A model generated the notes under the pieces. It saw only the letters and a list, made by a program, of their open reading frames with translations. It was not told where the DNA came from and did not search any database. Both the position numbers and the translations under genes were made by a program. Positions 4,237-37,459 of a stretch of 64,000 nt of DNA are shown piece by piece. The stretch's first letter is position 1; every line of letters begins with the position of its first letter. Location: positions 35,448,372 to 35,512,371 of the forward strand of contig CM040089.1 of NCBI GenBank assembly GCA_022496805.1. Direction: 5' to 3'. This stretch comes from Pohlia nutans (Eukaryota > Streptophyta > Bryopsida > Bryales > Mniaceae).

Positions 4237-4244
4237 GTGTTCAT
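4237..4244. other. Left target-site duplication of giant hAT element
   Basis: GTGTTCAT immediately precedes the CAGGGTTGT terminus and is repeated exactly after the right terminus. Confidence 0.9.
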
Positions 4245-4702
4245 CAGGGTTGTTCGGACGCTGGGATGCGGACGTCCGTCGGACGCGGACGTGCCCGTCC
4301 CAGCGTCCGATGACTTTGAAAAAATGATGTTTTTTACCCCAGCGGACGGGTTTTACCACATCGGACGGTAGTCGGTGATCGGACAGGCGGACGGCCCGAC
4401 CGGCAGGCGGACGGCGCGATCGGACGGACGAATAGGTCGGATGGTCTTGTTGCACGGACAGGTCGGACGGCCACGTCGCACGGCCAGGGCGGACGGCCAC
4501 GTCGGACGGCCATGTCGCACGTAAGTTGACATCTACGATAACGGGTGTCCCATCTTCGTTCCGGTTTGATTTGAATGAACTGAAATCAGTGAAATCTACC
4601 AATTTGGTGGTTCTATCTACGGGGTACTAGCACGTTTTTCTAGGTCACACTGGTTTAGTGTGAGTCGGACGGGCGAGCGAGTGCCCGATCGGATGGTCCA
4701 GT
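4245..4702 (+). repeat. Left subterminal CGGACGG array
   Basis: GC-rich DNA with many CGGACGG, TCGGACGG and CGGACG units in the same direction, strongly unlike the AT-rich surroundings. It lies directly inside the left terminus. The matching array at the right end reads GCCGTCCG, so both read CGGACGGC going inward. Subterminal hexamer clusters bind transposase in the maize Ac element; the same role here is inference. Confidence 0.7.
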
Positions 4703-4773
4703 GGTTTAGGGTTGGGTTAGAGTTCTAAATTGTATTGTGATTTTAATAGGACTAATTCAATAAGTTTAACCCT

Positions 4774-5551
4774 TTAACCCCTAACTGCCTAATCGACCAT
4801 ATATGGTCGATTCATAATTGCAGAGTTTAAAAAAAGTTCAGCCCACTAAAAACGTTCATAACTTTTGCAAAAATAACAATTTTTGAATGTCATTTTTTTT
4901 CCCTTGTAGATATTGAAACTGAGCAACTTTTTCAAAAAGAAATTCTGAAAAAACGTCTACCAATTTTCCTCTAAAGCCTTCAAAGTGACAGCATCTCAAA
5001 TTGTCACAATTTTGAAAATCTGCCCGGACTGGAATCTTTAAGTTTTCTACCAAATAAGATTAGTTCTAACATGAACAAGGTAACCACCATATAAAACCAA
5101 TGTTTCTGACCTATCATACTTGATTCCAAGTCAAAATGACTAAACATGTATTTTTTATGAATTTTCAAAGAAAATTCTTTTAAATTCATTATTAAATAAT
5201 TCGTAGCATTTTTCCAAAATTTAACCGTATGGATGTTGTCTTACTGTTGTGCTCTACATATGTTTAATAATTGAAGCTCAGAAAAGTTGAGTAAAATGGA
5301 CATTATGACACATCTAGCATTTCAAGAAAACCCTTGGGCACTTAGAGGTGAAGGTGCGGATTTAACACTGTTTTCAAAGATTCGTTATAAAATGGTTGAT
5401 AAAAAACATGAATGGGGTGGATGTACAAAGCAAAGTTGTAAACGTCAATGTGAAGATAACAACTGTATAGTTCGATTCATCGTATTTTTTATTTTTATTT
5501 TTTAATTAATTTTGCAAGATTTTCTCTTGCAATCCAATTTAAAATCCAAAA
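4774..5551. mobile_element. TTAA-flanked element end and AT-rich remnant
   Basis: TTAACCCCTAACTGCC at 4774 matches, in reverse, the right end of the MITE at 16,149-16,717. The matching second end was not found nearby, so this is a truncated or rearranged copy. Downstream is AT-rich DNA with one short plus-strand frame (ATG near 5296 to 5505) containing five Cys in a short span (GGCTKQSCKRQCEDNNC). It could be a transposase relic but is not identified. Confidence 0.35.
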
Positions 5552-5950
5552 TCAGCACAAAAATTTTAAATCCGTTGCAGGAATTGGTGATTTCCCACGG
5601 TAACCTTGCTTCCTAGAGCTATGTTTTGAAAAAGCTCTTGCAATCCAGCTTGCCTCAACATCGATGCCAAATGCCAATTTGACGTTGTAAACCGCCAGGC
5701 GCTCGATATCACGGAAGGCCTCGCCCTTGGGAGGGCCTCCGCTACCTTGGTTTAGGTACGGCCTATATAATGGGGACGGCCCATTCCATTTCTCACTCTT
5801 GATCTCCTTGCGAACACACCATGTGGCCTGGGGTCTCCCGGTGGAGTCCCCTTGCATTGGTTGTGGTGAAGATCGGGAGTCCAAATTCATACCGAGGTGC
5901 ATCATTTTGTTTTCGTGATTTCGCACGAATTGTTGATTTCTGCAGTGCAA
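5552..5950 (-). pseudogene. Coding-like remnant, unidentified
   Basis: About 130 codons stay open on the minus strand in a patch of clearly higher GC than its flanks. The peptide has protein-like composition (for example LAVYNVKLAFGIDVEASW) but no start or domain I can name. It is most likely the relic of a transposon protein or a captured gene piece inside the giant element. Confidence 0.3.
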
Positions 5951-6297
5951 TTATAAAAACAATTGACCGTGATTTATGAGCATATTTTGCATCACGGACT
6001 GTCAAATTCTAGTCATACAAACTTTATGTCAAAAGCTTATCATTTTGTATAAATTTTAAGTCCATTTACTCCATATCCGCATATAGCATATGAGCAAAAA
6101 ATCAACCAAGTCAACAAAACTCAAGATCATAAGACAATTGTATAATATATTAATATGTACACGATGACATGTGTTAATATGTTTAACCCATACACTCAAC
6201 ACAAGTTCACGTGTCGTATACATTGCTCCGTACCAAAAGTCATAGAAGAATACAGTACTATTACTACTATTCTAAACCAAAAAATCCTATATTTCGC
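5951..6297. other. AT-rich spacer
   Basis: Probable 3' flank of the kinase-like gene. No frame or repeat worth naming is seen. Confidence 0.4.
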
Positions 6298-7789
6298 CTA
6301 GTACGAAGATCTAAAATGCTCGTATGGTACTGGCCAGTTGTATGTGCCTCTGAAACGCGTCACTATGTGAGATAAACCTCTAGCTCCGTCTCGATCACTA
6401 GTGCACAATCGATTCAAGTAGCCCTGGAACACGTCTCCCAGTTCTTGCAGTTGATAAGAACTCTGTCCAGGCTTTTGCAACTTCCAGTAATCCTCCGACA
6501 TGTTGCGTTTGTTTATGCGCATAGCAATTTTTGCAACAGTATATGCTTCAGATGTCTTCGTCAATTGTGGGATTATGTCCACATCCGCATCACGCTTGTA
6601 TAAATAAGCAACCGTAGGGTCCACCCACCACCGTTGTGCAAGAGTATTGTTCATTTCCGCTGCACTAGTGAACGTGTAAAGTGACTTCATTGGCTCATGT
6701 GCGAAGGTTAACATGCCCCAATCACATACTCCAATGTATATATGCGACTCGTCCAAAGGAAAATGTAAAAGGATGTTATCGGGAGATATATCATTGTGGA
6801 GGTTGTTGGTCATGTGTACCTCAGACATGATAATCACAAATGCCCATGCCAACTCCGTTCTTTTCTTACGGAACCGGTGAAGACAGTCTGCTTTGATCAC
6901 ATCGTCCGGTGCTAAAGGTGCATGCAACGTACGGGCATAGATATCGTCTCCATACGCACTGTCCAAATTAAGCATTTGTCGCAATGTCCCACCATTCCAC
7001 CAATAGGAATAACCCTCGTATTTTTGGGGATGAATAGCCGTGTATCGTATAACACCTGGATGTTGAATCCTCACCGCCATTGATTCATTTTGATGCTCCA
7101 ATTTCGCTAGATCCGGTCTTGTCCATTGCTGATTGGATAGTTTGGCAGCAAACTCCCAATGGAGTTCAAGCCCTGGAGCTCCTTCTATCCGAACCCTCTT
7201 GATGGTTGCATATCCACCCTTGAGTGCTCGGCGCTCCAATTCAATGACCGTAGCCGTCTCTGGCAATGCTACCAAGTGTTGCCTCATTAACTTCTCTTCG
7301 AATTTTCCGGCACATGAATTCCACCAATCGATGGACTCTTTGCTCTTTGCGCTGTTTGCTCTTGGCGAATGGTTTCATCAACCCAACAAATAACTCAGCT
7401 TTCAAGATCACTTGCTCAACAAATGTATCGTCGTCAAGTAGTCCGTGATCCTTCCCGTATTTAGTTAATACGTCTTTGGAATTCCACAAACAATCATGCA
7501 CCCTTTGGTCCAAAAACTTCATGAATCCACGGTTCTCGGTCTCCCGAATCCATCTTGGATTATGAAGAGCGTGCAACATATCGTTCGACATCTCTCGTTG
7601 AAATTTTTCGACGCTTGCTTCTTTGTATCGAACGTATTTACTCTCCAACGCCATAATCGTGTTTTCTTCGTAAAATCTCACCATAAACTGCACCAAGAAC
7701 TTCTTACAGTCCTCTGATGGCGTGTCATTCAGACCAAATGGAGATTGATCTTGCCCCTTACCTATCTTGTGTTTATTTCCTTTCGGCAT
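6298..7789 (-). pseudogene. Cargo gene A: protein-kinase-like, frameshifted
   Basis: The frame opens at ATG 7789-7787 (Lys-rich MPKGNKHK start). After a novel N-terminal region of about 150 residues it would join a kinase-like domain, but a frameshift near 7340 separates the two. At that point CTCTTTG is present twice in tandem; losing one 7-bp copy would align the frames, so a slippage duplication is the likely lesion. The kinase part shows a glycine-rich LKGGYATIK segment, a candidate ATP-binding Lys in FAAKL, the catalytic loop HNDISPDNILL (HRD altered to HND but with the Asp and Asn kept) and DWG in place of DFG. It could have been an active kinase or a divergent pseudokinase. The gene points away from the CGTCCG array at 7957-8155, which sits just upstream. 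The second frame (6298-7287) has its own ATG and could still be translated separately. Confidence 0.6.
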
Positions 7790-7956: not shown

Positions 7957-8155
7957 GTGAGCCGTCCGAACTGGTCGGACGGCTTTATAAGCGGACCTGC
8001 TATCCGATTAGGTCGGCCGCCGGATCGGACGGCATCCGGTTTTCGACGCTCGATCGAACGGCTGTCCGCTGTCCGCCCGTTCGCCCGTCCTCTGTCCGCC
8101 CGATCGAACGATCGTCCATCGCCCGTCCGCTGTCCGCCCGTCCGCCCGTCCGAAA
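7957..8155 (-). promoter_or_regulatory. CGTCCG array upstream of cargo gene A
   Basis: A dense cluster of CCGTCCG, TCGGACGG and GTCCGCCCG units starts about 170 bp upstream of the gene A start codon. The same core motif lies at both ends of the giant element and upstream of genes B and C. A promoter or protein-binding role is inferred from position alone. Confidence 0.5.
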
Positions 8156-8164: not shown

Positions 8165-8668
8165 AGATTATTTTGGAATAGATTAAAAATGAAAGTTCTA
8201 GATTTTGAATTTCAGATTCTATCCATACAGTTCGAATCACTAATACTATCACCAATATTTCATTATAAAATTTGAAAGCTAAAATTTGAAATTTCTTTTA
8301 AGATCGATTACAAACAAAATATTAATATTCTTTGAGTAAAGTTTGTTGGAATGAATTTGAAATGAGATACTTTTGTACATGGTGATTTTTAAAATTTTTT
8401 GTGTTTCTTAAATCCATAACCTCATTTTTGCAAGGCCACTTTTGAACTACAGTCAATGCAATTTTGGCTTGGTCAACGACTTCAACTACTTCTACATTTG
8501 TAATTTTAGAAAACTATCTAATCAACTATGACTAAATCCAACCGTTAGATAGGACAACAACTTGATGAAGAATCTCCAAAAAAATGGATGACTTTCATCC
8601 AAGAATTGATGAGAACGTGCGAAGGGTTTGAATCTGTTAGTCGTCCACTTTCTGGACGCTCTGACGTT
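8165..8668 (+). mobile_element. TTAA MITE copy, left end missing
   Basis: The interior is similar to the MITE at 16,149-16,717 (shared blocks such as AGATTCTATCCATA and ACTATCACCAATA). It ends GACGTTCAGGGG followed by TTAA near 8664. The left end is not recognisable where the GC array stops, so the copy is truncated. Confidence 0.5.
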
Positions 8669-9080
8669 CAGGGGTTAAACTTGATGTATAGATAAAAGCT
8701 GTACGTTGCGAATTTTAGATTCTACCCTTATGGTTCAGGTCTATGATTGCTATTATCGGTGATTTTGTATAAATTTTGAAACGTAAAAATCAAAATTATT
8801 TTGTTTTTAAATTACTAATAAGATATTGGCATTCTATGGATGAAATCTATAGTGATTGGTTGAAATGTAATACTCTAAGTGTAGTGATTTTTGGAGATTT
8901 TGGGTCGCTTAATTTTATGACTTCACTTTTTCTAGAGCTCCTTTACATAGAAATCTTCATAGTTCTAGGTGAATCACTACAACATGAAATTAGGCCTACA
9001 GATTTCGCAAATCATCCCTTTTCATCACATGAATAAAAGTTGTACATCGGGTCCCCTTTCATCACATGCACTCTTTTTTG
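8669..9080 (+). mobile_element. Second truncated TTAA MITE copy in tandem
   Basis: Directly after the TTAA of the previous copy, the MITE interior starts again (ACTTGATGTATAGATAAAAG) and runs through blocks shared with the copies at 16.1 and 48.3 kb (GTGATTTTTGGAGATTTT). No terminal repeat is visible on either side. Confidence 0.45.
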
Positions 9081-9399
9081 GGTAAAGAGTATCCGTTATT
9101 CACTATTTTGCTTACATTGTTTTTAGAACTTCACGTTTAAAGCAATACAGTTTCACTTCTTGGACTTATGAAGAATATTAACTTACATCAATTTTTGTTG
9201 TTTTTTTCTAAAAATCACAATATCTTATTATGCATGATTCATACTGTGCAATAACTTGAACTTTACGTTAATAAAAACGGGCTACGATAAAAATTCAAAA
9301 ATTTGGCAAAAATTGAATAATCCGGCTCACAAATTCTAAACTTCAACGAGTACATAACCGAGCGTAATTTCCAATATAAATTGTTGCAGTTCGTGCCTC

Positions 9400-10990
9400 A
9401 TTAAAAGATATATCGATTTCATCGATCTTCTCTACATTCTTCTGGCAAACATTCTATACTTGGTTGACAACGAAACGAGCTTCATCCAAATGCAATTGTG
9501 AAGGTTTAGGCTTATTTTAGAACTTGGTTGTGCATAGCACAAAGGCCTTTCCGAAAAGGACTCCCATCGCATTCTCATTTCATACCCTTTTATAACTGCC
9601 TTCCGCAATGAAAACGTCCATCACGTATAGGATTATTTCTAAAAAAACATTTTGTTTCGCTATAGTAGGAAGTTCAAAAGGACAAATGAACCGCCAAAAG
9701 TGCACTTTCTTCAACCTCTCTTTATTTTAGGACCTTACTACATACTCTCTACTTGAATCATGTGGCTTCTCGTATCTACTCTTGGCCGAGCTCTTTTTTC
9801 AAACCATCTTCATCATCAAACAACCTCATGAGCTTTTATGCTCAAAGTGCAGTTCGGCAAAACCAGTTCTCACAAAAACACAATTGTAAAGATCGTAACG
9901 AATACCTTTGACGTACATACTCACGTAGCTTGAGAACGACCTTGCCACCTAACCAGTAACCACTTTAGTTCCCCCATTGAAAGGCTTGAAAAGGTATTGC
10001 TTCTCGTATGCTTTTAGATCTCGGTATAATATATAGGTAAGATAAATATCAACATCGCATTCCCCCCATCCAAATCAAAGTAATGCCACGAACAACATTG
10101 TTTCCAAACTCACTTCGGGATCAAACCGACCATTCATGCTACAAGTGTTGAAGTGTAAGGAATAGAGACATTGCTATGACCTACAACAACTGCACCATCC
10201 AAGCTACACTCAAAAAGAATTTTCTCCTTTCAAACACTTTGATTGTATCTCCCCACCTACCTAGTCTTCTTGCCTCCACTAAACCACATTGCAAAACTCT
10301 ATAGGTAATGACAATCTCTAAACTCAAAACAAACTTACACAGCAAGAAACTGTTTTGAACTTAAAGAACAAGCATGCGTCGGCAAAGCAAGGGACAATAC
10401 CCAGAAATGCGTTTCAATGGGGGACTAAGGTTATTAGGTGGCAAGGTCGGTCTCAAGCTACAAGAGTATGTACTTCAAAGGTGTTCGTCCCGATTTTCAC
10501 GATTATGTTTTTCAGAGCTCTCGTGTTGCCGAACTGCACTTTGAGCACACCAGCTCATGAGGTTGCTCGATGATGAAGAGGGTTTGAAGAAAGAGCTCGA
10601 CCAAGAGTATATACGAGAAGTCACATGGTTCAAGTGGGGAGTATGTGGACATATGGTCTTAAAATAAACAGGGTTTGAGGAAAGTGCGCCTTCGGTGGTT
10701 CATTCGCTATTTTGAACTTCCCAATATAGCAAGACAAGAAGTTTTTCATGAATAACCTTATTCGTGAAGAACATTCTCATTGCGCAAGGTAATTATAAAA
10801 GGAGTAGGAAATGACAATGTGATGGAAGTCCTTCTCGGAAAGGCAACTGTGTTGTGCACAACCAAGTTCTAAGATAAGCTTATAGCCTCTCAATTGTATG
10901 TGGACTGAACTCATTTCGTTTTCAACCGAGTATGTAAAATCTGCGATAAGAAACTAGGCAACATCGATACAATTGATAGATCTCTCGGCG
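9400..10990. repeat. Large diverged inverted repeat (foldback)
   Basis: Two arms, roughly 9400-9990 and 10,410-10,990, are inverted copies of each other with perhaps 75-85% identity by eye. Examples are TTAGAACTTGGTTGTGCA at 9520 against TGCACAACCAAGTTCTAA at 10,855, and GTGCAGTTCGGCAAAAC against GTTGCCGAACTGCAC. It could be a foldback transposon or a decayed palindrome. No protein is encoded. Confidence 0.65.
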
Positions 10991-11070
10991 AGCTAGGAAC
11001 TCCAACTCTTATTGTTAGAAATAACGATCGATTATGTACTCATTGTAGTTTACTCTTTGTGAATGGATTA

Positions 11071-11204
<134 letters not shown>

Positions 11205-12699: not shown

Positions 12700-13180
12700 T
12701 GAGCGGACGAAGAAAGCGGTCCGCTATTTATACTGTCCGCCCAACGCGGACGAAGCGTACGACGGACGCCAGCCCGATCGGACGGACCAGATCGGATCGG
12801 ACGGACGGACGGACGGACCAGATTGCATCGGACGGACTGACGGACTCGATCGGACGGACCAGATCGGATCAGACGGATCAACAGAGTCGATCGGACGGTG
12901 CAGTCGGACGACGAAGATCGGACGGCGCTGATCGGACCGGACGAGATCGGACGGGGTAATCGGACGCTGAGATCGGACGATGAGATCGGACGACGAGATC
13001 GGACGCTGAGATCGGACGATGAGATCAGACGGACCCGATGTAACGGAGCCAGATCGGACAGCCAGATCGGACGGACCAGATTACTCGCCCGCGATCGTCG
13101 GGTCGGACGGCAGATCGGACGGGCGGAGCGGACGGCCGAGCGGACGGCACGATCGGACGGGCCGCCCGGGGACGGCAGAG
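12700..13180 (+). promoter_or_regulatory. GATCGGACG array upstream of cargo gene B
   Basis: Nearly 500 bp of GATCGGACGG-type units, partly with a clear 14-bp period (GATCGGACGNTGA between about 12,960 and 13,020). It lies just upstream of gene B and has the same core as the element ends. Reading frames across it (Arg/Asp/Gly/Thr repeats) come from the repeat. Confidence 0.6.
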
Positions 13181-15999: not shown

Positions 16000-16130
16000 T
16001 GACGGTGGAGGGTCCGAACGGATATATCGGACGGCTGAATCGGACGGCGGACAGCCGGCAGATTGCAGGATTGGACACCGTGAATCGGACGGCAAATCGG
16101 ACACCCAAAATCGGACGGCAGATCGGGGTG
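16000..16130 (+). repeat. Short CGGACGG array without an adjacent gene
   Basis: Several ATCGGACGG and GGACGGC units, like the arrays before the cargo genes, but no gene now follows. It may mark the promoter of a lost cargo gene. A MITE begins 18 bp downstream. Confidence 0.6.
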
Positions 16131-16148: not shown

Positions 16149-16717
16149 CCCCTAAACGTCCTCACCTATGTCCAGTTTAGGCAGTTTTGCAAAGATGCAT
16201 TATAAAATGCAATTAATATGAATATTTAGAACTTGATGTATGAATAAAAGTTATACATTTTTTATTTTAGATTCTATCTATATAGTTAGATCTATGACTA
16301 CTATCACTAATCTTTTTTAATAAATTTTCAAACATAAAATTAAAAATTACTTTGTAATTCAATTACGAATAAGATATTGACAATATGTGGATGAAATTTG
16401 TTGTGATGGGTTATAATGTAGTACTTTAGGTGTAGTGATTTTTGGAGATTTTTTGGATGCTTGATTTTAATAGTTTTTTTTTTCATGAACACTTTTAGAC
16501 CAAAATCTTCAAGATTTTCGGTGAAACACTACAACACAAAATGAGGCATAATTTTTTTTTAAATTATTTCCTTTTCGATCGGATCACACATACATGAAGT
16601 TAACTTCCCATAAAAAATTCAGTAAAAAAATCACACCACAAAAAGTGCATGACGGATGAGAAAATACGGATGAAATCTGTACATCAGGCCAAAAACGCCT
16701 GCTTGGGCAGTTAGGGG
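16149..16717 (+). mobile_element. TTAA-flanked MITE, 569 bp
   Basis: The body starts CCCCTAAACGTCC and ends GGGCAGTTAGGGG, flanked by TTAA at 16,145-16,148 and 16,718-16,721. TTAA duplications with CCC-starting ends are characteristic of piggyBac-type elements. Only the outermost CCCCTAA is clearly inverted here. The interior is AT-rich and non-coding, and related copies occur at 8.2, 8.7 and 48.3 kb. Confidence 0.65.
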
Positions 16718-17629: not shown

Positions 17630-18013
17630 AATCACTATAACAAAACATGGTAAAAAAAGACCGTAGTGAATTTGTCATTACGGTTCTTTTGGTCATGGTT
17701 TTGTGACAATGGAATTCATTGTAAAAAAAATTGAAATCATCGGTAGTGGCTTCATTTCGTAGTTTTCAATCGCAACTACATGCATAGTCTTGCGCATTGA
17801 AGGACGTTTGCAATTCATAGTCATACTTTAGTATTCTTCATACCGATGTCAATATTGCAAGCACGTACGTATCGAATTTGGGTGCAAGTGCATGTAACTG
17901 TGTACAGTAACTGCGAATACACGAAGTCAAGTGCAAGTTCATGAAGTTTACTACTTTAGTGCTAGTTCAAAAGTGAGTGTGTAATTAATTAACTACGTAA
18001 TACGAAATTCCAA

Positions 18014-18017
<4 letters not shown>

Positions 18018-18053: not shown

Positions 18054-18057
<4 letters not shown>

Positions 18058-24635: not shown

Positions 24636-25206
24636 GTCAGTGTGTTTATTTGACCTAATTTAGAAGGGACTTTCATAGATTTCGGAGATGTTTTGCTGCG
24701 CTATCTTTCATTTCGGTTTTTGTTGGCTCTGACCGTAGGGAAGAGGCATTGCGGGAACACTCATTTTTTGGGACTAAATTCCACTGTAGCAAATATATTC
24801 CGTCCATGATTCCACTTAAATGCATTCACGTCCTTCATTCCGGTCAGAGCTCCTCGTAGCGTAGCTACTTGTTTAATTTTGGCCGGGTACGGTAGTCTCT
24901 GTAGAAAGAGACATACCCAATAATTGGCTGTACGTCGGTATTTCCTGTGACCTAACTTTGCAGATCAATTACAAAGAAAGCTTCGTGGCCCAATTCGAGG
25001 GGGCTTTGGCTATGACGTGATCCGGAGCTGCATTCGTTTCTAGGGTTTCAAGTAGCCAACAATTGGTAGTCAGTGCGTAATCTTCCTTCGCGGCTAGATG
25101 TACTGATTGTGCTTTTTCTAATTAGACTGAGTTGAACATGCCTAAATGCTGCAAGTTCTCAAAGGACATTTTCAATTGAACAACTTAAGCTAGGGAAAGG
25201 TGTTAT

Positions 25207-25476
25207 ATGGTGTGTCCGATTGAATTGTGGTGCTACATTGATGAACTTGAGTTACCTATTTCTAGGGTTTGGACAATTGCTAAGGAGTGCATTACGAATC
25301 AGGGGACAATTTATGAAACTTCTCAAGTAGCCCTAGATGAGCTGATTCTGATTTCTCTGATTAGATCGAAGGTGCCGCAAGTTTTCAAACAACGATTTGG
25401 AAATTTGATCGATTCAGTTTGAGGAGTCATGGCGGACGTTTCAGACGACGATGCGCTGGAGATCACTTTGAACAAG
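25207..25476 (+). pseudogene. Exon-like pieces of unknown origin
   Basis: A 71-codon frame (25,207-25,422; ATG start) is followed seven bases later by ATG GCG GAC, which opens MADVSDDDALEITLNK and ends at a GT donor (25,477). The second looks like a first exon of some gene; it cannot be identified from 16 residues. Confidence 0.3.
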
Positions 25477-25516
25477 GTAAAAATCGGGTGCTGGTGTGGG
25501 AAAAAACTAGGGTTTA

Positions 25517-25729
25517 CCTGTTTTTGGTGATGGAATACATTTCTTCTTCTCATGGGAAGCTCGGAGGTGATGTGGTGTAAGAAAATCAGAGTATCCTTTC
25601 TTGGTGATGGAATACACTTCTTCTGCTCATAGAAAGCTCGGAGGTGATAAGATTATGTTGGTATGGTGAAGTTAAGGTTTCTCTTTTTCGGCTTGGGAAG
25701 CTTGGAGGTGAAACGATTGTGCTGGTGTG
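25517..25729 (+). repeat. Short diverged tandem repeats, about 90 bp
   Basis: Three imperfect copies of a unit containing GGTGATGGAATACA and AAGCTCGGAGGTGA. The array lies just before the right arm of the inverted duplication. Confidence 0.6.
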
Positions 25730-26311
25730 GTTTAGAAATGGCAGTGTAGTCTTTCTTTCATGCATAGAAATTTAAATTTTCGCTTGCTTTCTGATTAGGG
25801 TCGAGAGGAAGCGGAGGATTCTCGGAGAAATGAGAAAGAAAATTCGAAGAGGTATTTTTTTCATGTCTTTTGTTGCTGAAATATACGTGGTTTTCTTTTA
25901 AGTTTGTTTTGAATTCAATTCTGGTGGAGCTTGTGTGGAAGCTTGAGGACATGGTAACTAGAAAACATTCCATTTTTGAATGGCGGGGTTTTTTTTGAAA
26001 GACTCTGTTCTGAAGCTGTAATTACACATATGAGGATTGAAAAACTATTCCTGTTGATGTGTTACTCAAATATTGCATTCCTTTCAAGTCTTAATTTTAT
26101 GGTAGTTCCAGGCTAATCTCGACACGATCTCCGATTGCACAGTTGTGGTCCTTTCAGCTTGCATTTTGAAAGGAAGAAGCAATGGACTCCATAATAGGCT
26201 ATTTTGGAGCCAAGCCAGTGAACCAGGAAAAGCCCATGGCAATTGAAAGAACTCCATCACGATGAAGTGGGTGAAGGAACTGTCTCCTCTAGGCAACTAT
26301 GTGGTTGGGCG
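25730..26311 (-). repeat. Right arm of 0.58-kb inverted duplication
   Basis: Inverted, nearly identical copy of 21,186-21,765. It ends exactly where the ribose-5-phosphate isomerase exon begins, so that junction was formed by the rearrangement. Confidence 0.9.
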
Positions 26312-26313
26312 CT

Positions 26314-26664
<351 letters not shown>

Positions 26665-26719
26665 TAACTAGAAGCTCAAGTCATGTGGATTTCCTTTTGT
26701 TCAAATTTATTTGTTCTTA

Positions 26720-27043
26720 GTCAACACATGCACTGTTCTTCACTGATTCCAGTGATATAAAATTTGGTTCCATCTGAATTACATTTTTCACAATATTTAT
26801 GATTGTTTGAATCTGCCATTTTAAAACCCTGAGTCCTTGGTCCTTTAGGGCTACTGTTTAGCCTAGCCAACAACGTTACTTGGAAGCAATGTTTTCCATT
26901 TCAAGCAGTGCTGCACGATATACAGGACTAAGGATTCATGGTTTTAAAATGACAAATTCCATCAATCATATTGTGAAAAATGTAATTCAGATGGAACCAA
27001 ATTTTATATCACCGGAATTAGTGAGAAACATTGCATGTGGTGA
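26720..27043. mobile_element. Foldback MITE, about 320 bp
   Basis: Two inverted arms of roughly 130 bp each, with about 90% match in the best part. TATAAAATTTGGTTCCATCT near 26,756 pairs with its reverse complement near 26,990. There is no coding content. It sits downstream of the RPI exon and may have been present before capture. Confidence 0.75.
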
Positions 27044-27769
27044 GTAAAAAACAAACAAAAAAAAGTCCACAAAAGACCTACTCAGAACTGTTTTAAAAAA
27101 CATGTACTTTTTGGTCCTTTAGGGGTTAAGGAGTAAGGATACTCTTTGCAGCACTTTAACATATGTAACAGTGTGATTTTTGGGAGATCACTATAGAGCT
27201 TTTGAGAGACGTTTGGGTACAAGAGCCAAATCTGTTGAGATCTGTTTAGTTCTATTACACCTTTCAACAAAAATTCTTGAATTGAGGATGCGGAAACACA
27301 TAGATAGTCGAAACTTGTCCAATAATTTGTAGAGATCCTTTCTTGAAGGTTGTGTGTAGGTTTCTAATTATTGCTAATTGTACTGCAGATGACAGGATGA
27401 AATGCTTTTCAAGATTCTATATATATGGCAGTGGACGTCGTGGCGTGCTTGACGTAATATGGCAGGAGTTACAAATCCTTAACAACAAAGGCCGTGAAGG
27501 GGCCCTATATTAATATATATTTTCCATCACAAGTTAATAATGGATATTTCTTTTTGGGCTCTTACTATATGTACATGTTCATGCATGGGTACGTACGTAG
27601 CTATGTGTAGCTGAATTGTTCGATCTTCACGTAGCATTTGCACAGCCGATAGAACTTGTTGTTTGTAATCATATATGATATGCAGCGGTTGTTTAGTAAT
27701 GAGCAGCAAGGTTTCATGCACTGAAGTTGGATTTTGCCACTCCTACTTGACAAAAGGTCCTCAAATGCA

Positions 27770-27965
27770 TGCACTTACATACATTTGACAACATGCACTC
27801 ACATTCGAGTGCACACACTCGCACTCAACTACGTGCACTAGAACTCGCAATCACAGCTGAATACGTGCTCTGGCACTTGCATTTGCATTCGCAGTTGAGT
27901 ATGTGCACTAGCTTGCACTCGCAGTTGACTACTTGCACTCGCGTGCGCAAGCACGCGCGCACAAC
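27770..27965 (-). repeat. Right subterminal repeat array of CACTA element
   Basis: CACTCGCACTCAACTACGTG-like units, the reverse of the array at 18,180-18,835. The mirrored arrangement supports one element spanning 17,633-29,330. Confidence 0.8.
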
Positions 27966-28784
27966 ATAAGTAATGTAAATCAAGTTTGCAGTTAAGAAAT
28001 GAGAATTACATATTTATGTACAAGTGTGCACTCGCATGCAAACTTAGAAATGCATTTGAGTAAATATGCAGTGCACATGCATCTTGTAATGAAAACAATT
28101 TGTCATTGTGTATATATTTGACAGAGTGTGCGTGTGATGACCGAAGCTAATTAAAGTAGTGTGCATGTGAATTATCTTGAACTGTACGTATAAAGCTAGC
28201 TACGGATATATGTAGATGCATGCTTGCATTGGTAGTTGTCATTAATATGAATGAATGCACGTATATATATGTTTGCCACTACAATTGTTGATGACATATG
28301 TATGTATATGCATGTTTGCGTATGCATGTTAGCAGTTGCAGATGCACTAGTGGCCGACTCGTAACGAGGAAGCATATATACGTATGTAATTAGATAGTAA
28401 CAATGAACTGAACGTTGTAGCTAGGAAATGGCTCTATAATTAATCTAGTGTAATGTATAGGAGGAAAAAGATGCACAAAGAAATGGACCGCGGTTCTGAA
28501 TTATTAATTGTGAGAACGGTTTTTCATGCATTTACGTGCACGCTCATCCTGCATGCGTGTAGCGAACATGTACATGAATTGAATTAAATCAGCTGCAATT
28601 TATTATTTGAGTTGTGTATGTTCGTTTTACAAGATTGATTGAGTTATGTATATACGTGTACGTACAACCCAACTAGCTTGTTCAAACCTACGCAAATAAT
28701 GCAAGATGTGTGCATGCAATGTACTTTGACAACGTTTTGTGTAGGCCCATTACGAACGTAGCCAATGTTTTTTGCAATTTCCGA

Positions 28785-28897
28785 CTGCAATTTTTAGAAT
28801 TTTAGGGCGTGTAATATACTCTTGGAAAGGTATTGAATATACCTTGTCAACAATATATTACACGCCCTAAAATTCTATAAATTGCAGCCAAAAACTG
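28785..28897. mobile_element. Small foldback, about 110 bp
   Basis: AGAATTTTAGGGCGTGTAAT near 28,797 pairs with ATTACACGCCCTAAAATTCT near 28,857, with a loop of about 40 bp. It is probably a tiny MITE in the right part of the CACTA element. Confidence 0.75.
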
Positions 28898-29330
28898 CAA
28901 AAGAAGTTAACAGCCCACTACGCACGCATGTACAAAAACGTAGTGATGTAAGTATGCTCGTACAATTAAATGTCTAAAAGAACGCACATATTTATGTACA
29001 ATTAGTTGATTGATTAATTAGTGCATGCATGTGGAAGTGCATGTGCGTGGGAAGCTTTAATGAAATTGAAGTAATTAAAAAGCGCGTGTACATAATTAAA
29101 CAAGTAATTGTAGATAGCCGGCAAAATAAATTCAATTTGTATGGAAATTTCCATATGTTCAATCTGAAAACCTTAAAATGATTGAACGAGTGAAAATATC
29201 GTTCTGTAGTCGCTCAGTCCATTCCAAATCAAGTGTACACTGTAGTGAAAAATATGCGCACAAAAACGTGGCAAAAAAAACCGCACTCAAATTTGAGTGC
29301 GGTTTTTTTTTACCATGTTTTGTTATAGTG

Positions 29331-32300
29331 AATGTCCTCCAAAGTTGCGACAAAACACCTCCCGGTCCGCCTCGTTATCAATTGCACGTGCTCACACTTT
29401 GACTTCGTAACCTCGGGTCATCCAAAAAAGAGGATCAACATCCATAACAATGTGTTCCTCACTATTTAGTACTTCCACATGGTACAAGCCGTGGCAGTTG
29501 AAGTCAACATCCCATACCAATGGTTGACCCCAGTTCTTGTAATTCAGAAATTTCTTTGGTAGTTGATCCAGAGGAAGGTTCCACTGGTTGTACTCATGAC
29601 CAGATGGCATAACGGCGCGAAGTCCCATCATTTCGTAGAATCTGACATGTATAGGAGATCGGCACTGGGGACAATAGGAGCGCCGTAAGCAATGTTCCGC
29701 AATGCACTTAACGTGAAACGTATGGGAACATTGTCCTAGTTGGATTGCTCCTTCTGGACCAAAACCATATTGACACAAGCAACATGTTTCTTTCAGAAAG
29801 GCGGGAGCTGGATCACACGTATGAACCACCGTCTTCTCTTTCTCCAATAAATGCGAGGAAAACACGTTATATGGCATCCACCCTTCCTCAATCGCCGAAG
29901 CCCAGTCAATGTTGTCGAACATAGAACCCTGGAACCCATGTGTCCGTCCCATCATCAAGTCAACATCACCCCACGCGGTGAACTCTGTGAGTGCACGCGC
30001 TCCGGGCACCGCGGCTTGTCGCTCAAATAAGTCTCTCAGCCTCCTCAACGCCCTTAGGTGAGTATAGAGATTCCCACTTTTCTCGTTCCCATATTTGAAC
30101 AGAAAACCCAATTGCCTCTCGACCAATTCATCCACATCCATTAATTGGTGGACATAACTCAACCAAGGCAGGCTATGCTCTTTCCGTATCAGTATCTTTA
30201 TATCACTGGTAGTTTTCCAGAAGTCTAGTTCAGTCACAGCTATATCCCTGTCAATCTCTGCTTGGAGCAATTGTTTTCTCAACGTCTCGATCTCTTGGTT
30301 GCTGGCTTCACCCTCCTCGGTTGGTGGTCTGGTCCAGGGTTGACTATCCAGCATTTTTTGTACAACTACTACCTCGGCTACACGTGGACGATATACCATA
30401 GTATCCGCCGATTGTTCATGGTTGTCACCGTCCGAAGTCTTCGCATCAAAGGGAAGAAAGAACTGATCCGATGGGGCGAGAGTTTCTTCAACTATTGCTT
30501 CGTCCAAAGTGTTGGCAACAAATAGAAGAGACAACTGGTCCGATGGGGCAAGAGTTTCTTCAAGCATTGCTTCGTCCGAAGTCTTGGCATCAAAGGGAAG
30601 AGACAACTGATCCGATGGGACGAGAGTATCTTCGACTATTGCTTCGTCCGAGGTCTCGGCAACAAATGGAAGAGACAACTTGTCCGATGGGGCATGAGTT
30701 TCTTCAAGTACTGCTTCGTCCAAAGTCTTGGCATCAAAGGGAAGAGACAACTGCTCCGATGGGGCAGGAGTTTCTTCAAGTATTGCTGTAGTTGATGATT
30801 CTTTGTGTTTCATCAACTCTTCAATCATAGTGGTGAGATGCAACTCCTTGAAATAGTTGAGTACATGGGTTGCACGCAATTCGTCCTGGAAATCCCACGC
30901 CATCTGCTCAAATTTATTTGCACGTTCCTCTGCATCTGCTACTTGTTTCTTGGTGATCTCTTGAACACGCTGAACGCCCGTGTAAATGGCCATTTGTTTT
31001 TCAATCGATTGGATGGAGCATATAAGCTGTGGTGCCAACTTATGGAGGAAATGTGTTACGTCCATGGATCGTACCAAGTTTTGATACAATCCCTTCGAAA
31101 GATTTCTCAACGTACCAAGATCACGTGCAAGGTCCGGTGGAACCTGTTCGGCCCGACTCCATTGCTCTTTTTCTGCATTTGGGCCCGGCATTGGAACTTC
31201 CTTCACGAACGCATCGAATGCATTCGCTATATTGCCTATAGTCGTTATCTTTGTCTTAGACAGCCTATATGTTCCCCATACACCATCTACTAGAATTTCA
31301 GGATCCGAGTCACCTAATGCATCTTTCTCGTTGGGAGCCTGAGGAGAGACTACAGTTGCACTACTTGGACCAACATGGTCCAATGCAACCGTCATGGTCC
31401 AATTTGGTCCGATGGCATACTTTTCTTCGCGGACTTCTTCGGAAATGTTATCCGGCTCCAACTTCTGTTTCCCTTTTGAACCTGCAGTTGCGTCAATTGG
31501 TGTGGATGGATTTTGCGGCAATTGTTCCACCTCCTTCTTACACGGAATCGATGGAATTGTGCTAGTTGCAGTTGACTGAAGAGTTGTAGTTTTGACTTTG
31601 TTTTCCTCTGGTTCAACTTTGACTTCGACTTTGTTTTCCACCCGTTCAGCATGGACCGAGTTTTCCTCCTGTTCAACTTTGACTTGGTTTTCGACCCGTT
31701 CAACTTTCACTTTGTTTTCCACCCCTTCATTCAACTTTTCCAAAACGGCCTTAGGTTGTCTCCGTAATTTGGTTCTCTTTGGTTTTACTTCCACCCGACC
31801 TAAGCTGCTTGCAGACTTCTTATACGGTTTCTTCAAAGAGACCAACATCTGTCTTGTGCTTGTGCTTGATGGATCATACAAATCAGGAATGTCCCGCTGC
31901 CCATCTTCTAACTGAAGTGGATGTGTGATAATTGTAGGGTAAGTACTCCAATCCACCTTGCGCTTCAATTTGAGTTCCACGTAGACCATTGCCAGTAAGT
32001 TATAGTTGAATACCCCCTTGGACCTGAGACGGGCCCCAAACATTGCCCTTCATACCTTTTCTGCTCGGTGAAGGAAATGATCGTCATTGCACAGCCATGG
32101 CTTGCACGTAAAGGACCTTGTAATTACCGGGAATTCATTCCTCGGCCAAAATTTAGCAATGTGGTACAATTTGACGTATTGCTTGACAGTCTTGGAAGAC
32201 CAATATTCTTCATCATGTACTTCCCATCCTGAATTAGCGACAACATCTGGGTCGTCCAATGCCTCGAAATCGAGCGCATGAGGAGCCCCCTTGCGCTTGT

Positions 32301-32367
32301 TCTTCCTAAGTTCAGCATCAGTATTCGGAGACTGTGGCTGTTCGGGAACTTCACCTTCACTTGCCAT
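29331..32367 (-). pseudogene. Cargo gene C, 5' part: N-domain plus RING-H2 protein
   Basis: The frame opens at ATG 32,367-32,365 (MASEGEVPEQ) and runs in one frame to the CACTA insertion at 29,330, with TGA codons at 32,052-32,050 and 29,394-29,392. With the 3' part at 17,052-17,629 it would be about 1,204 codons. Residues 20-150 hold the domain shared with gene B (DDPDVVANSGW, KQYVKLYHIAKFWPR, NYNLLAMVY, KVDW). Then follow Lys/Glu/Val-rich repeats, five 24-residue repeats (about residues 525-650, LEETLAPSDQLSLPFDAKTS type) and a RING-H2 finger at about residues 858-905 (CCLC, CSHTFHVKC, YCPQC; all eight ligands present). RING-H2 proteins are typically E3 ubiquitin ligases. The gene faces away from the transposase across a shared GC array. 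Likely a recently disabled E3-like cargo protein. Confidence 0.7.
30425..30790 (-). repeat. 72-bp in-frame tandem repeat in gene C
   Basis: Five copies at 72-bp spacing (for example GCTTCGTCC at 30,569 and 30,641) coding a 24-residue unit with EET, APSDQLSLPF and KTSDEA. Copies differ at several positions, so the array is not brand new. Confidence 0.9.
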
Positions 32368-32685
32368 TACTCTGCGATAAGCGAATCAACCGTGTGGAAA
32401 TACTGTGACGAAATCCCGCGAAAAGGTGAATCAACAGCGTAGAAAATCCGTGACGAAATGCCGCGAAAACGTGAATAAACCGTCCGTGTGAAAATGCCGC
32501 AAAAATGTGAATCAAATGGTAGTAGATGCTTATTGTGACCAACCAATGATTGGTGACAATAAGCATATGACCTCTCACGTCCGAGTAAAATAAGGCCAAG
32601 AAGTCCTCAAAAGGAATTACTTGCCGCCTGATTTTGGGGTGAGAAGTGAGAGCAAATGAGCCTAAACGTCCCTTCTATAGTGGCG

Positions 32686-33272
32686 TCCGCCCCTCCATCC
32701 GCCCGCCCAAATCTGATCGGACGGCCGATCCGGCCCGTCCGCTCGCGACGACCGTCCGATCTGTGTTGTCCGCCCGATCTGTGCCGTCCGATCTGGGGCG
32801 TCCGATCGGGCTACGGTGGCCGGCCCTAAAACTGTCCGAACCCTAACCCGTTCGCTCCTATCCGGTCTGTCCGATGCAGCCCGTGCGATCCGGCCATCTG
32901 ATCTAGCCCGTCCGATCCAACGCGTACCCTAAACCCGTCCGATCCAACGCGTCCGATCGAACGCGTCCGATCTAGCCCGTCCGATCCAACGCGTACCCTA
33001 AACCCGTCCGATCCAACGCGTACCCTAAACCTGTCCGATCCAACGCGTCCGATGCAGCCCGTCCGATCCAGCGCGCCCGATCCAGCCCGTCCGATCCAGC
33101 GCGTCCGATCCAGCCCGTCCGATCCAGCGCGCCCAATCCAGCCCGTCCGATCCAGCGCGTCCGATCCAGTCCGTCCGATCCAGCGCGCTCGATCCAGCCC
33201 GTCCGATCCAGCGCGTCCGATCCAGCCCGTCCGATCCAGCGCGTCCGATCCAGCCCGCCCGATCTATTGTTC
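32686..33272. promoter_or_regulatory. CGTCCGATC array between gene C and the transposase
   Basis: Almost 600 bp of CGTCCGATC units. From about 33,050 they alternate as 14-bp units ending AGCC and AGCG (28-bp pairs). The array lies between the start of gene C (minus, 32,367) and that of the transposase (plus, 33,558), so it is positioned as a two-way promoter or binding array. The core motif is shared with the element ends. Confidence 0.6.
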
Positions 33273-33557: not shown

Positions 33558-36500
33558 ATGCCTAGCGATTGGGAAGACTGGTACGTGGATATAGTCCCTG
33601 GAAAAGTGAAGTGTTTATCATGTGGATCATTTTTTGCAAAGAAGGCGGCGAGGATGTTGAGTCATCTTGGATACCGGAACGAATCCGGAAATCGTGACAC
33701 GGGCGTATCTCTATGCAAGAGATTGACATCTCAAATCAGAGGGGTTTTTCTGAATTGTAAAGGAAATCCTCCAAAGCGTCCAAATCGAGATCATTCTGAT
33801 GAATGTCGCACTCCGAGAACGGGAAATACGGATATCATGGAAGTGATGGAAATTTTCACACCACAATCAACAGATTGAGAATCACGCGAAGGACCACTAG
33901 AGATTCCAATTCACAGGTCTGCTTCTAATACAACTGAAACTACTGCGAGCAGACCACCATCAACGGAACGTGACAGTGCAATTGGTAGGGTTGGCCGTCC
34001 ATTGCGACAAGCGGGCATATTAGAGGGTTTCCAAGAAGAGAAACGAAGGGAGTTAGACAAGATATGGGCAAAGTTTTTTTACGAAGCTAATATACCTTTC
34101 TCGATTGCACGAAATTCAACTTTCAAGGAGGCGATACGGAGAACTTCTGATTTTCGTGCACCGTACGCACCACCCTCTTACAATGATTTACGGAAGAAAC
34201 TCTTGGTGCAAGCCAAGAATGAACTCGGGGAGGTGTTGGAAGGTAAAATGGCTAATAGCGTTCGCAAGTTTGGAGCCACTTTGACATTTGATGGATAGAG
34301 CTCGTGCACAAACCAACCCTTATTCAATGCAATGATAGTGTCTCCAGTAGGAGAGCATTTTCTTGGATCAGTAGACACTTCGGGACATACAAAGACTGCA
34401 GCGTACCAAGCGTCAATTATAGAAAAGTTCATCGAGGACGTTGACTCGCAGAACGTGGTGCAAATTGCAACGGACAACGCATCTGTCATGAAGGCAGCAG
34501 CGAAGATCATAACCAACAAATATGATCACATCTATTTCCAAGGGTGTGCTGTGCATGCAATGAACCTCTTATTGGGGGACATCGCAAAGGCAAAGTGGAT
34601 AACTGAGGTGTTGAAGAAGGCTCGCACGATCGTGATGTTCATAAAGAAGAGACACATGCCTCTTGCAGTATTTCGAAAGCACGAGAAGAAGTACAGCCTA
34701 GTATTGGCAGGGAAAACTAGATTTGGATCCAATTTTATGATGGTGGATCGATTAATCGAAGTCAGACAAGCCTTAGAGCAGTCTGTGGTGGACGAACAGT
34801 GGACGTCTTATGTCACCACTCTCAGAGACGACAAAAAGAAAAAAACGCGCACTATGTCTCGAGACGTGAAAAAGAACATTTTGGACGATCACTTCTGGCA
34901 ACGGTGTACTAACTTTCAAGAGGTGGTTGCACCGTTGATGTATGCTTTGCGAGACTTTGACAGTGGGGAACCTGGTATGGGCAAAATCCGACACATCTTT
35001 CGTAATGTGGAGAAACACATTGAAAGGGTGCGAGATGAGTTCTTTACCTTTGACGGTGAAGAAAGCATTGACGTGGAGAAGCACTTCCGCGAGCGATGGG
35101 CATTGGTCAGAACGGATTTACACGATGCGGGTGCACTTTTGAATCCTTATTTGTTACACGATAAGGAACTGGCGGATGATTTGGATGCCATTACAGCATG
35201 CAAGCGTGTGCTTGGGAAATTATGTTCTCCAGAAACATATCCGGATGTGGTGCTAGAGTTTTTGGCATTCCGTCACAAGGAACCCCCCTTCCACAATATG
35301 TTGGATCCGAAACAACAGAAGTGCTCGCCTCATGCATGGTGGGATTTTGAAGGGGCATGTGGAAAGCTCATTGCACCAATAGCACGGAGGATCCTAGCCC
35401 AAACCGTGTCATCGTCATCATGCGAACGCAATTGGAGTAGTTATTCTTTCGTGCACAACAGGTCTTGGAATCGCCTCCAAAAAAAGAGGGCTGAAGATTT
35501 AGTGTACGTGTACACAAATTCGAAGCTCCTCGCGAAGGCAAAGCGAAAGGATGAGAAGAAGTGGTACAACGAAAATGTATCATCAGAAGATTCTGATTCC
35601 GCTTCAGAGGGAGAGGATGGAGATGATGGACTCGATTGGATGGTAAATCATGCATCTGACGATGATTGGTGGGCTGATGTGCCTCGTGATGATCCGATGG
35701 ACGATTGGAGTGACCAACTCTCTCCAGAAAGGCCTGAACCCTCTCAACCAAGATATGGTAATTCAAGCAACAATGTATACGATTTTGCTGAGGATGGAGA
35801 GGAGGGCAATCACGTGCAAGTATTAAATGCCAACAATACTGGTGTACATGTTAGGGAGGAGAAGAATTCTACGTCGGAACGGGGTGAAGAAGAAGGGCAC
35901 AAACGTGGTGAAGATAGTGGTACGAAGATTGACACAGTGCAAGAAGGTATTTCGAAGGACCCCAAAGATTCTGAGTTGGAGCTCTCAAATGGGCGAAAGT
36001 CCACAATGGTGAACAATGGTCATCCTAAATGGAAAGCCATAGAGGAACAATTTGGTCCAATTAGTAAGAGTCCATTGAAGTTTGTAGACAGAGATTCTTC
36101 TCGTCTTGAAGACCAAATTCAGAGCACCACTCTTGCCTCTAGATCCTTATTTGATAATTCAAAAACACCAACAAACAGAGTTCCACTGACCTCTTCAACG
36201 GGATTGGTATCCCTTTCCAAAACACTGCATGGACGTATCAGAGAATCGGACGTAGATTCGGAAAGTGACGGAAATTTGCCTTTAGCAGTGGCAATACTAA
36301 GAAACCATTCAGGTGTGCCCCCAAGGCACAATCACCGCCCAATGGAGAAAAGAACGGACAAGGAGACACTTGGGGGCCAAAAACATCTAGCATCAAGTGC
36401 AGAGAAATTTGGCCCAACTGCAAATGGCAACCTTAAACGAAAAAGGCCCATGCAACCATTTGCTGTTTCTCCGCCAAAGCCGGGAGTACGTGCCAAAAAC

Positions 36501-36662
36501 TCCCTTGACGCGAGTGGATCCACGCAGAAAATGAAGAGTATCCAACGAGCATTCAAGGAGACCAAGGGAAATGAGTATTATTCTAGTGAAGACGAGTCAT
36601 GTGATCCAGATGACAGTAGCGGAGCAGAGGTGAAAGGAGATTCTGATTACAAAGAAGATTGA
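33558..36662 (+). pseudogene. hAT transposase (BED, DUF659, hATC) with two in-frame stops
   Basis: One uninterrupted frame of 1,035 codons from ATG 33,558, broken only by TGA (codon 107, 33,876) and TAG (codon 247, 34,296). It has a BED-type zinc finger (WYVDIVPGKVKCLSCG then an H in SHLGY) and DUF659 with catalytic Asp in TLTFDG and IATDNAS and the conserved CAVHAMNLLL. The hATC dimerisation region carries the third acidic residue in SSCERNWSS. The TAG stands exactly where the family has Trp (DGWS), so TGG to TAG is the likely change. After hATC there is an unusual tail of about 370 residues: strongly acidic first (SEDSDSASEGEDGDD), then Ser/Lys-rich. It is the only transposase in the window that fits the giant element's ends. 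As it stands only fragments would be made. Confidence 0.85.
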
Positions 36663-37040
36663 AAACTCAATAGCATTTGTGTATTTTCTTAGAGTATATT
36701 TTATAAGATATTCTGATATTCAGTAATTGTAGTTGAGTGGATAGTAGATGGATTTTATAAATATATATTTATATGGTGAATGAATGGCAATATTCTACTC
36801 ACGTTTCCTTTTAGGAATGTTTTTGAGTTACGAAATATAAAATATACAAGTGTTCGTTCCAAATCTTAATGATTGTCATGTGAATGGTATAATACATTTC
36901 ATTTGTTTTTATGTTTTATGTTATTGGAACAAGTGGAGCTTTATCCCGCTGAACAAATTCGCTATATTTTTTATACAAAGAGGGTCACAGTGGCTTATTG
37001 AGAATCTAATATGTTTTCTCCGCCACTTCAATTTGTTTGT
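36663..37040. other. AT-rich 3' flank of the transposase
   Basis: AT-rich DNA that would hold the transposase polyadenylation site. No gene is seen. Confidence 0.4.
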
Positions 37041-37099
37041 TGTTTGAAACGGCTTGCATAGTTCAAGGTTTAGGGGTTTACATGCCTGCCTTGCCCTAG

Positions 37100-37451
37100 A
37101 ACGGCCTGGCCGTCCTCTAGTTCTCTACGGGCCGTCCGGCCGACCGGCCGTCCGCTCGCGCCGTCCGCCACGCCGTCCGCCAGACCCATCGCTGGCCGTC
37201 CGCCGTCCGCAAGGCCGTCCGCCTCGCCGTCCGCTACGCCGTCCGCCACGCCGTCCGCCAAGCGCAGCGCAGCCGTCCGCCCGTCCGCCCGTCCGCCTAT
37301 GCCGTCCGCCAGGGTAAAAAACGGCAGCGGTAAAGTAAATCGGGATTTACCCAGCGGACGCTACGTCCGGCCGTTCGGACGCTGCCGTCCGGACGTCCAG
37401 ACGTCAAATCGGACGCTTTTTGGTCCAAGGACGTCCAAAATGACAACCCTG
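37100..37451 (-). repeat. Right subterminal GCCGTCCG array
   Basis: Dense GCCGTCCGCC units, about 12 bp apart, ending at the ACAACCCTG terminus. They are in mirror orientation to the left array. Confidence 0.75.
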
Positions 37452-37459
37452 GTGTTCAT
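37452..37459. other. Right target-site duplication of giant hAT element
   Basis: GTGTTCAT follows the ACAACCCTG terminus and exactly matches the left copy. Eight bases is the length expected for hAT transposases. Confidence 0.9.

Follow-up and report, generated by a model that had tools for sequence, protein, structure and literature searches.

The window analysed here is a stretch of 64,000 nucleotides from the moss Pohlia nutans (contig CM040089.1, positions 35,448,372 to 35,512,371 of the forward strand). Positions 4237 to 37459 are occupied by a hAT transposon together with its target-site duplications. The element carries a hAT transposase gene on the plus strand and three accessory genes on the minus strand, which are a kinase-like gene (accessory gene 1), gene B, and the RING-finger gene C. 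A CACTA transposon is nested in gene C, without which the element is about 21.5 kb long. Overall, the element is best explained as belonging to a long-lived family of giant hAT transposons with several genes each, a reading in which we have high confidence. Its features are listed below, with the strand where a feature has one.

4237-4244: left target-site duplication GTGTTCAT; same octamer at 37452-37459
4245-4253 (+): left tip CAGGGTTGT; a similar tip with small changes in copies C4, C8, C10, C11 and C12
4255-4670 (+): left subterminal CGGAC array, 18 motifs, 16 inward-pointing
6301-7789 (-): kinase-like accessory gene 1, frameshift near 7343-7365
7964-8152: CGGAC array upstream of the kinase gene, 11 motifs
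9317-11071: inverted-repeat stretch inside the element, also in copies C4 and C12
11413-12540 (-): accessory gene B, frameshifted, start approximate; N-terminal domain in common with gene C
12704-13158: CGGAC array upstream of gene B, 37 motifs
16012-16116: further CGGAC array with no gene assigned, 7 motifs
17055-17632 (-): 3' part of gene C, severed by the CACTA; frame continues across the site
17633-29330: nested CACTA, 11,698 bp; AAT duplications at 17630-17632 and 29331-29333
29331-32367 (-): 5' part of gene C with RING-H2 finger, two in-frame stops
32482-33247: CGGAC array between gene C and the transposase gene, 31 motifs
33558-36662 (+): hAT transposase, DUF659 and hAT dimerisation region, two in-frame stops
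37134-37414 (-): right subterminal CGGAC array, 20 motifs, 16 inward-pointing
37443-37451 (-): right tip ACAACCCTG, by direct reading
37452-37459: right target-site duplication GTGTTCAT, by direct reading

Ends of the element

The octamer GTGTTCAT was read directly and is perfect at both outer positions. Immediately inside it, the tip CAGGGTTGT and its reverse complement ACAACCCTG form a 9-bp terminal inverted repeat, which lies within the range of 5-27 bp given for hAT elements (PMC12506042). The exact nonamer occurs at only two places in the window, in inverted orientation, and these are the two outer ends. With one mismatch allowed, the 64 kb contain nine matches where 12.9 are expected, and by itself the nonamer could thus be a chance occurrence. 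Alignment of the two 300-bp zones just inside the tips gives a score of 59; random pairs drawn from the element, up to 200 in number, average 18 and reach at most 42. The CGGAC motifs behind the tips point inward in 16 of 18 cases on the left and 16 of 20 on the right. The combination of GTGTTCAT and the left tip is found once in its own genome.

The four genes

The transposase open reading frame (ORF; 34299-36662) matches DUF659 (5.6e-27) and Dimer_Tnp_hAT (2.9e-09), both above the Pfam cut-off, and stands head-to-head with gene C. The N-terminus of the protein contains C..C and H residues, and the N-terminal piece gave no Pfam BED match. FDGW, TDNA and SCERNW motifs, which may contain the hAT DDE catalytic residues, are present in the transposase of copy C11 (see below). 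A sequence search with the transposase retrieved no solved structure. By its duplication, its tips, and its transposase domains, the element as a mobile unit is a hAT transposon. The two in-frame stops of the window gene are replaced by ordinary residues in the open frames of three relatives (P0001-P0003), and another genetic code was rejected as their explanation on this ground.

The kinase-like gene (7789-6301, minus strand) has 79 relatives, several of which carry a precomputed kinase domain. The structural model of P0121, which is 83% identical to the window protein, has a mean predicted local distance difference test value (pLDDT) of 84. Its best structural matches are protein kinases (E 7.6e-08, template modelling score 0.61 by target length), and K210, E229, D327, and N332 are invariant across 27 aligned relatives, two of them named from Ceratodon. 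With the kinase fold and the conserved lysine and aspartates present in its relatives, accessory gene 1 is a predicted kinase. Another relative, P0161, is named from the Ceratodon V chromosome and represents 126 member sequences, a number in keeping with a mobile gene.

Gene B (about 12540-11413, minus strand) is frameshifted in the window and open in copies C4, C11, and C12. It has an N-terminal domain in common with gene C, for which comparison scores of 72 and 157 were obtained, whereas 500 shuffles in each case reached no more than 52 and 56. No Pfam match was found for gene B in any copy tested. A motif resembling a ubiquitin-interacting motif (UIM) is kept at the end of gene B in the window, C4, C11, and C12.

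Gene C consists of 32367-29331 and 17632-17055 on the minus strand. Its RING finger scores 29.9 bits for zf-RING_2 in the window, above the cut-off of 27.3, and 26.8 bits in C11, just below it; by this finger gene C is a predicted RING-type E3 ligase. A protein search with a gene C piece gave no match among the 7,993 most word-sharing candidates that were scored, which is no evidence of absence. The structure prediction of the C-terminal part had a mean pLDDT of 38 and was not used.

All four genes are broken in the window copy, the transposase by its stops, the kinase and gene B by frameshift, and gene C by two in-frame stops and the CACTA insertion. With two stops in its transposase, the window copy is either dead or movable only in trans. 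Open transposase, B, and C frames exist elsewhere, which marks the window copy as an old one that no longer moves or does so in trans only.

An earlier note on this DNA, made from the letters alone, had described perfect 8-bp duplications with inverted tips, a DUF659 transposase inside them, a length of about 21.5 kb once the nested CACTA is removed, and three non-transposase genes opposite the transposase, each with its own GC array. Each of these points agrees with the present analysis; the arrays consist of GTCCG/CGGAC motifs, and the one upstream of gene C is also that of the transposase. The stops and frameshifts in the genes, the splitting of gene C by the CACTA, and the inverted-repeat stretch at 9317-11071 are additions to that note.

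Other copies in the genome

The genome searched comprises 697,796,988 bases in 332 contigs. A gene C piece matched 69 stretches, which were grouped by hand into at least 51 places including the window; the count is a lower bound, since 51 of 788 candidate places were scored. Twenty-seven places belong to the lineage of the window (other copies 81-96% identical), 15 are about 60% identical, and the remaining nine are about 70% and 53% identical in two parts. In 23 of the 30 loci fetched, of which the window is one, the start of a transposase gene faces gene C head-to-head. The seven exceptions are the window itself, where the stretch ends too early, three loci in which the match comes from later in the gene (L015, L020, and L021), and three in which no transposase was found in the fetched piece (L017, L022, and L030).

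Five of these copies were read as elements. The C4 copy (C4:31462105-31488208) measures 26,104 bp, including its own 5.5-kb insertion in the kinase gene, and is flanked on both sides by TCCCGGCC; over 19,884 aligned bases of 21,509, it matches the window element at 97.3% identity. The insertion, a separate one of about 5.5 kb (L033-L034), is nearly free of CGGAC motifs (three in all). In the C11 copy (C11:1910853-1933215; 22,363 bp), GCTATCTT stands on both sides and the left tip differs by one base. Its frames are open over 1019 aa in the transposase, 1184 aa in gene C, and 361 aa in gene B, whereas the kinase has one stop. The C8 copy (C8:22699130-22722232; 23,103 bp) represents a third lineage, with GTTGGGAC on both sides and one changed base in the right tip. 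The C10 copy (C10:23046032-23068370; 22,339 bp) is flanked by ATCCCGTG and ATCCACTG, which agree at six of eight positions. At C12 (23.17-23.20 Mb), the left end is followed by the four genes in unchanged order, with a transposase match that stops at residue 733 of 1022; gene C is 56% and gene B 66% identical to the window pieces, and the kinase is 64% identical to P0121. Both ends were thus read in five elements, the window included; four of them have perfect and mutually different duplications, and in the fifth (C10) six of eight positions agree.

In C4, C11, and C12 the order is left end, kinase (-), B (-), C (-), transposase (+), and right end where it was read. The same order is found in C8 and C10 as far as they were fetched; the C8 reading covers the beginning of gene C and the end of gene B but not the middle of the element, and the C10 reading leaves out the gene B interval. 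Order and orientation are constant even in lineages where gene C is only about 60% identical. The flanks of different copies (0.8-1 kb) have no similarity among them. The different duplications and the dissimilar flanks indicate independent insertions rather than products of segmental or whole-genome duplication.

C10 and C11 lie in tandem repeats, and the empty site, with a single octamer, can be read in the repeat units next to them. The joined flanks of C11 align with the neighbouring unit along their full length of 160 bases (score 175, about 131 identical), with one change in the octamer there. Those of C10 align over 159 of 160 bases with six mismatches and contain ATCCCGTG once, which suggests that the second octamer of C10 changed after insertion. 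The window element, for its part, lies about 600 bp from a tandem repeat (38052-38889).

Relatives from another data source point the same way. The transposase P0003 is 98% identical over 59% of the query, the kinase P0133 is 96-97% identical in two pieces, and both are listed with a longest contig of 27,639 bp. A 6,480-bp contig also appears in the transposase and kinase lists (P0037 and P0189), and 2,919 and 2,127 coincide too; these may be chance and were not used. Scans of viral and genome contig collections with the transposase and the kinase confirmed no relative.

The members of the family are units of about 21.5-23 kb, not counting later insertions, which have CAGGGTTG-type tips, 8-bp duplications, and a fixed order of four genes. 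The family has inserted at many places and has diverged into at least three lineages within one genome. The earlier note had proposed one giant hAT unit with non-transposase genes and had named further copies with the same ends and empty sites with a single octamer as checks of this claim, most of whose tests the claim passes. Other full copies with these ends (C4, C8, C10, and C11) stand elsewhere with different 8-bp duplications, and the empty sites were read for two of them, C10 and C11.

Selection on the four genes

Ratios of nonsynonymous to synonymous change (dN/dS) were obtained from Nei-Gojobori counts with bootstrap limits. Between C11 and the window, dN/dS is 0.25 (0.21-0.31) for the transposase, 0.56 (0.48-0.68) for gene C, 0.42 (0.31-0.57) for gene B, and 0.34 (0.27-0.46) for the kinase. 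The values between C11 and C4 are 0.25, 0.57, 0.41, and 0.36 in the same order. Between C11 and C12 they range from 0.28 to 0.55, and every upper limit is below 1. For C11 against C10, gene C gave 0.37 (0.21-0.80); the gene B row was excluded from this pair because the C10 match is a related domain of gene C. Synonymous divergence (dS) between lineages is 0.37-0.71, and the nonsynonymous divergence (dN) of the accessory proteins is 0.22-0.25, compared with 0.09 for the transposase.

All four genes are under purifying selection between lineages, and the accessory genes were kept while the lineages separated. Because every lineage read has the same accessory set and this selection has acted on it, the genes seem to belong to the element itself and not to be host cargo that changes.

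CGGAC arrays inside the element

GTCCG/CGGAC motifs occur at a density of 6-8 per kb in the hAT parts and of 0.5-0.9 per kb in the CACTA and the flanks. An array lies upstream of each gene, gene C and the transposase sharing one. In C11, the nearest upstream array is 163 bp (kinase), 144 bp (B), 188 bp (C), and 294 bp (transposase) from the start of the gene; the corresponding distances in the window are 175, 164, 115, and 311 bp, that of gene B depending on an approximate start. Four random points were at least as near to arrays in 0.29% (C11) and 0.22% (window) of 20,000 draws, a test whose limit is the largest observed distance and which thereby favours the result.

The Ac transposase of maize binds subterminal repeats with the motif AAACGG (PMC3260210). 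In the moss element, the CGGAC motif of the ends is repeated before each accessory gene, which suggests common control by the transposase. Judged by the arrays, such transposase-linked control of the accessory genes is conceivable, with a chance that we put a little under even.

The nested CACTA and other repeats

The CACTA has matching 26-base termini (CACTATAACAAAACATGGTAAAAAAA) and AAT on both sides. The reading frame of gene C runs across the insertion site and is uninterrupted there in C4 and C12; the C4 gene has a small in-frame deletion adjoining this position. No CACTA transposase was found among the two ORFs tested. An ORF at 23835-24281 contains a P-loop/adenylate-kinase-like stretch (AAA_18, 5.1e-07) and resembles a captured piece of a host gene. 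Inverted repeats of about 595 bp (21173-21765 and 25730-26324), 98.7% identical and about 4 kb apart, are a young insertion or inversion inside the CACTA.

Within the hAT element, the stretch 9317-11071 is a long imperfect palindrome and, being found in C4 and C12 as well, is either an old insertion or a part of the element. A dispersed repeat of about 69-76% identity occurs inside the element at 8169-8449, 8675-9021, and 16188-16615 and outside it at 48314-48749. Inverted repeats of 710 bp, 98% alike, lie outside the element in the right flank (53169-53878 and 61069-61778). Rfam gave no match at gathering scores.

Proposed mechanism and rival explanations

In the proposed mechanism, the transposase would bind the CGGAC arrays inside both ends and pair the ends, and the whole block would be moved by ordinary hAT cut-and-paste, of which past insertions are what is seen. 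Through the arrays upstream of each gene, the accessory genes might come under common control, perhaps by the transposase, so that the element would form one regulon. The accessory proteins may act together in a phosphorylation/ubiquitin pathway, in which the protein of gene C would be a RING-type ligase, that of gene B a partner sharing its N-terminal domain and possibly binding ubiquitin, and the kinase would prime or regulate targets. The set could help the element to spread, for example through removal of a host factor for silencing or repair. The accessory genes are probably functional for the element. Their action on host proteins by ubiquitin and phosphorylation in the service of its spread is a tentative proposal. 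The full picture of a small self-regulated genome, in which the transposase, by way of the CGGAC arrays, both pairs the ends and, as a transcription factor, runs an accessory regulon that alters host protein turnover, is more speculative still and, taken whole, rather unlikely.

The existence of a real multi-gene giant hAT family, more than a single element, is practically certain, and chance ends or an assembly join are very unlikely. Repeats this large are hard to assemble and assembled sequence was used without raw reads, so ends from different places might have been wrongly joined. The arrangement was, however, read at five further places on other contigs (one with a single end), on which ground an assembly join was rejected, and the near-identical transposase and kinase are both listed with the 27,639-bp contig elsewhere; an artefact is very unlikely. 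Another candidate is a macrotransposon, in which two ordinary hAT copies, or one end of each, came to lie around host genes and the block was mobilised on one or a few occasions, much as maize Ac/Ds ends move intervening DNA of about 100 kb (PMC3260210). Yet the window has only one inward pair of tips and no inner exact tips, the gene set and its order recur where gene C is about 60% identical, the four genes are constrained, and CGGAC arrays recur internally before each gene. Two separate hAT ends were rejected for the exact tip at the two outer ends only and for the constant gene set, and we regard this origin as highly improbable. The earlier note had itself named ends of separate copies or an assembly join as what would overturn its claim; neither was borne out as such, since the same arrangement stands at five further places, and the unit stands.

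More weight belongs to the view that the unit is real and the accessory genes are passengers, host genes captured once and kept either through selection on them as host genes or because the capture lies few generations back. The broken kinases described below, the many other data sets with kinase-like relatives, and the higher dN of the accessory proteins speak for it. On the other side are dN/dS values below 1 between lineages at dS of 0.37-0.71, genes B and C that are open in C11 and C12 (B in C4 too, and gene C of C12 without stops), and the same motif arrays before every accessory gene, so that passengers are an unlikely, if serious, contender. The internal CGGAC arrays could also be non-regulatory remnants of the ends of older nested or fused copies, as they have the same core as the true ends, in mixed orientation. 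No further exact tip is found in the element, and the distance to the gene starts is kept in C11 and the window while the array sequence differs; a remnant origin accordingly appears improbable to us, though less so than a macrotransposon.

Several observations weigh against the reading of a long-lived family with functional accessory genes. The kinase is broken in all six elements examined, by the frameshift in the window, the insertion in C4, two stops in C8, and stops in C10, C11, and C12 whose codon positions differ, which makes a present need for it doubtful. The window kinase itself scores 17.3 bits against a Pfam cut-off of 31.7. Ubiquitin binding by gene B is a weak lead, since the UIM-like pattern is present in three further ORFs of the window (0.45 expected per shuffle) and Pfam does not recognise a UIM. 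The C8 transposase has one stop, and the right end of C12 was not found in the 36.5 kb read. Upper dN/dS limits between C11 and C10 reach 1.22 for the transposase and 2.55 for the kinase, there being too few changes to reveal constraint on these two. The array distance test is lenient in the way given above, and any activity, binding, or expression of the unit is a prediction. The family of giant multi-gene hAT transposons nonetheless remains the best overall explanation.

If the self-regulated reading were true, the element would stand as the first hAT to have accessory functions dedicated to it, long maintained in mosses, and the change in host protein turnover might counter silencing. Whether a transposon acts on its host through accessory proteins such as a kinase and a RING protein can be studied by experiment in this element, and the motif arrays common to its genes allow a direct test of the idea that the transposase runs a regulon.

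Comparison with known systems

hAT transposons are textbook examples of small cut-and-paste elements, and here a lineage keeps three whole accessory genes in a unit of about 22 kb. In line with the earlier note, which knew of no such design, searches of open-access literature, whose scope leaves out most subscription papers, Repbase reports, and bioRxiv preprints, found no description of a giant multi-gene hAT. A 2019 review of giant eukaryotic transposons, whose main text contains hAT nowhere as a whole word, holds that natural barriers keep such elements lean (PMC6431247). An approximately 22-kb hAT in many copies and at least three lineages runs counter to this view.

The moss element is like maize Ac/Ds and medaka Tol2 in its 8-bp duplications, short inverted tips, subterminal repeats, and hAT dimerisation region. 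Ac is 4,565 bp (PMC3260210) and Tol2 about 4.7 kb (PMC8151067), whereas the moss element is about five times as long, has three accessory genes, and carries arrays inside as well as at its ends. Large loads on hAT ends are reported, namely about 200 kb in Tol2 vectors (PMC8151067) and about 100 kb in a maize Ac/Ds macrotransposon (PMC3260210), which is likewise a very large block moved by hAT ends. In that case two elements flank unrelated DNA, whereas the moss element has one pair of ends, a constant gene set, and internal arrays.

The earlier note had likened the element to fungal Starships. The likeness holds for the idea of a large mobile element that carries genes, but not for changing cargo, since the moss gene set is fixed and under purifying selection. 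Starships are larger and varied in content. They have a tyrosine recombinase (DUF3435) captain at the 5' edge (PMC12506042), whereas the moss element has a hAT transposase at its 3' side. No DUF3435 is among the Pfam hits of the element ORFs of at least 130 aa that were tested, and membership of the Starships was rejected for this and for the hAT transposase. ToxhAT (ToxTA), of 14 kb, was formerly called a gene-carrying hAT; with its TA duplication and 74-bp tips, it was reassigned to Tc1/Mariner by its authors (PMC12506042).

The nearest described design found is that of the Chondrus CACTA families, which are likewise enlarged cut-and-paste elements with extra ORFs (16-20 kb, 4-5 ORFs; PMC6431247). 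They belong to another superfamily with other termini, and the likeness is one of description rather than of compared ORFs. Pack-MULEs and gene-carrying Helitrons are also plant DNA elements with non-transposase gene sequence (PMC6431247). They hold mostly captured gene fragments, whereas the moss element has kept whole genes across lineages.

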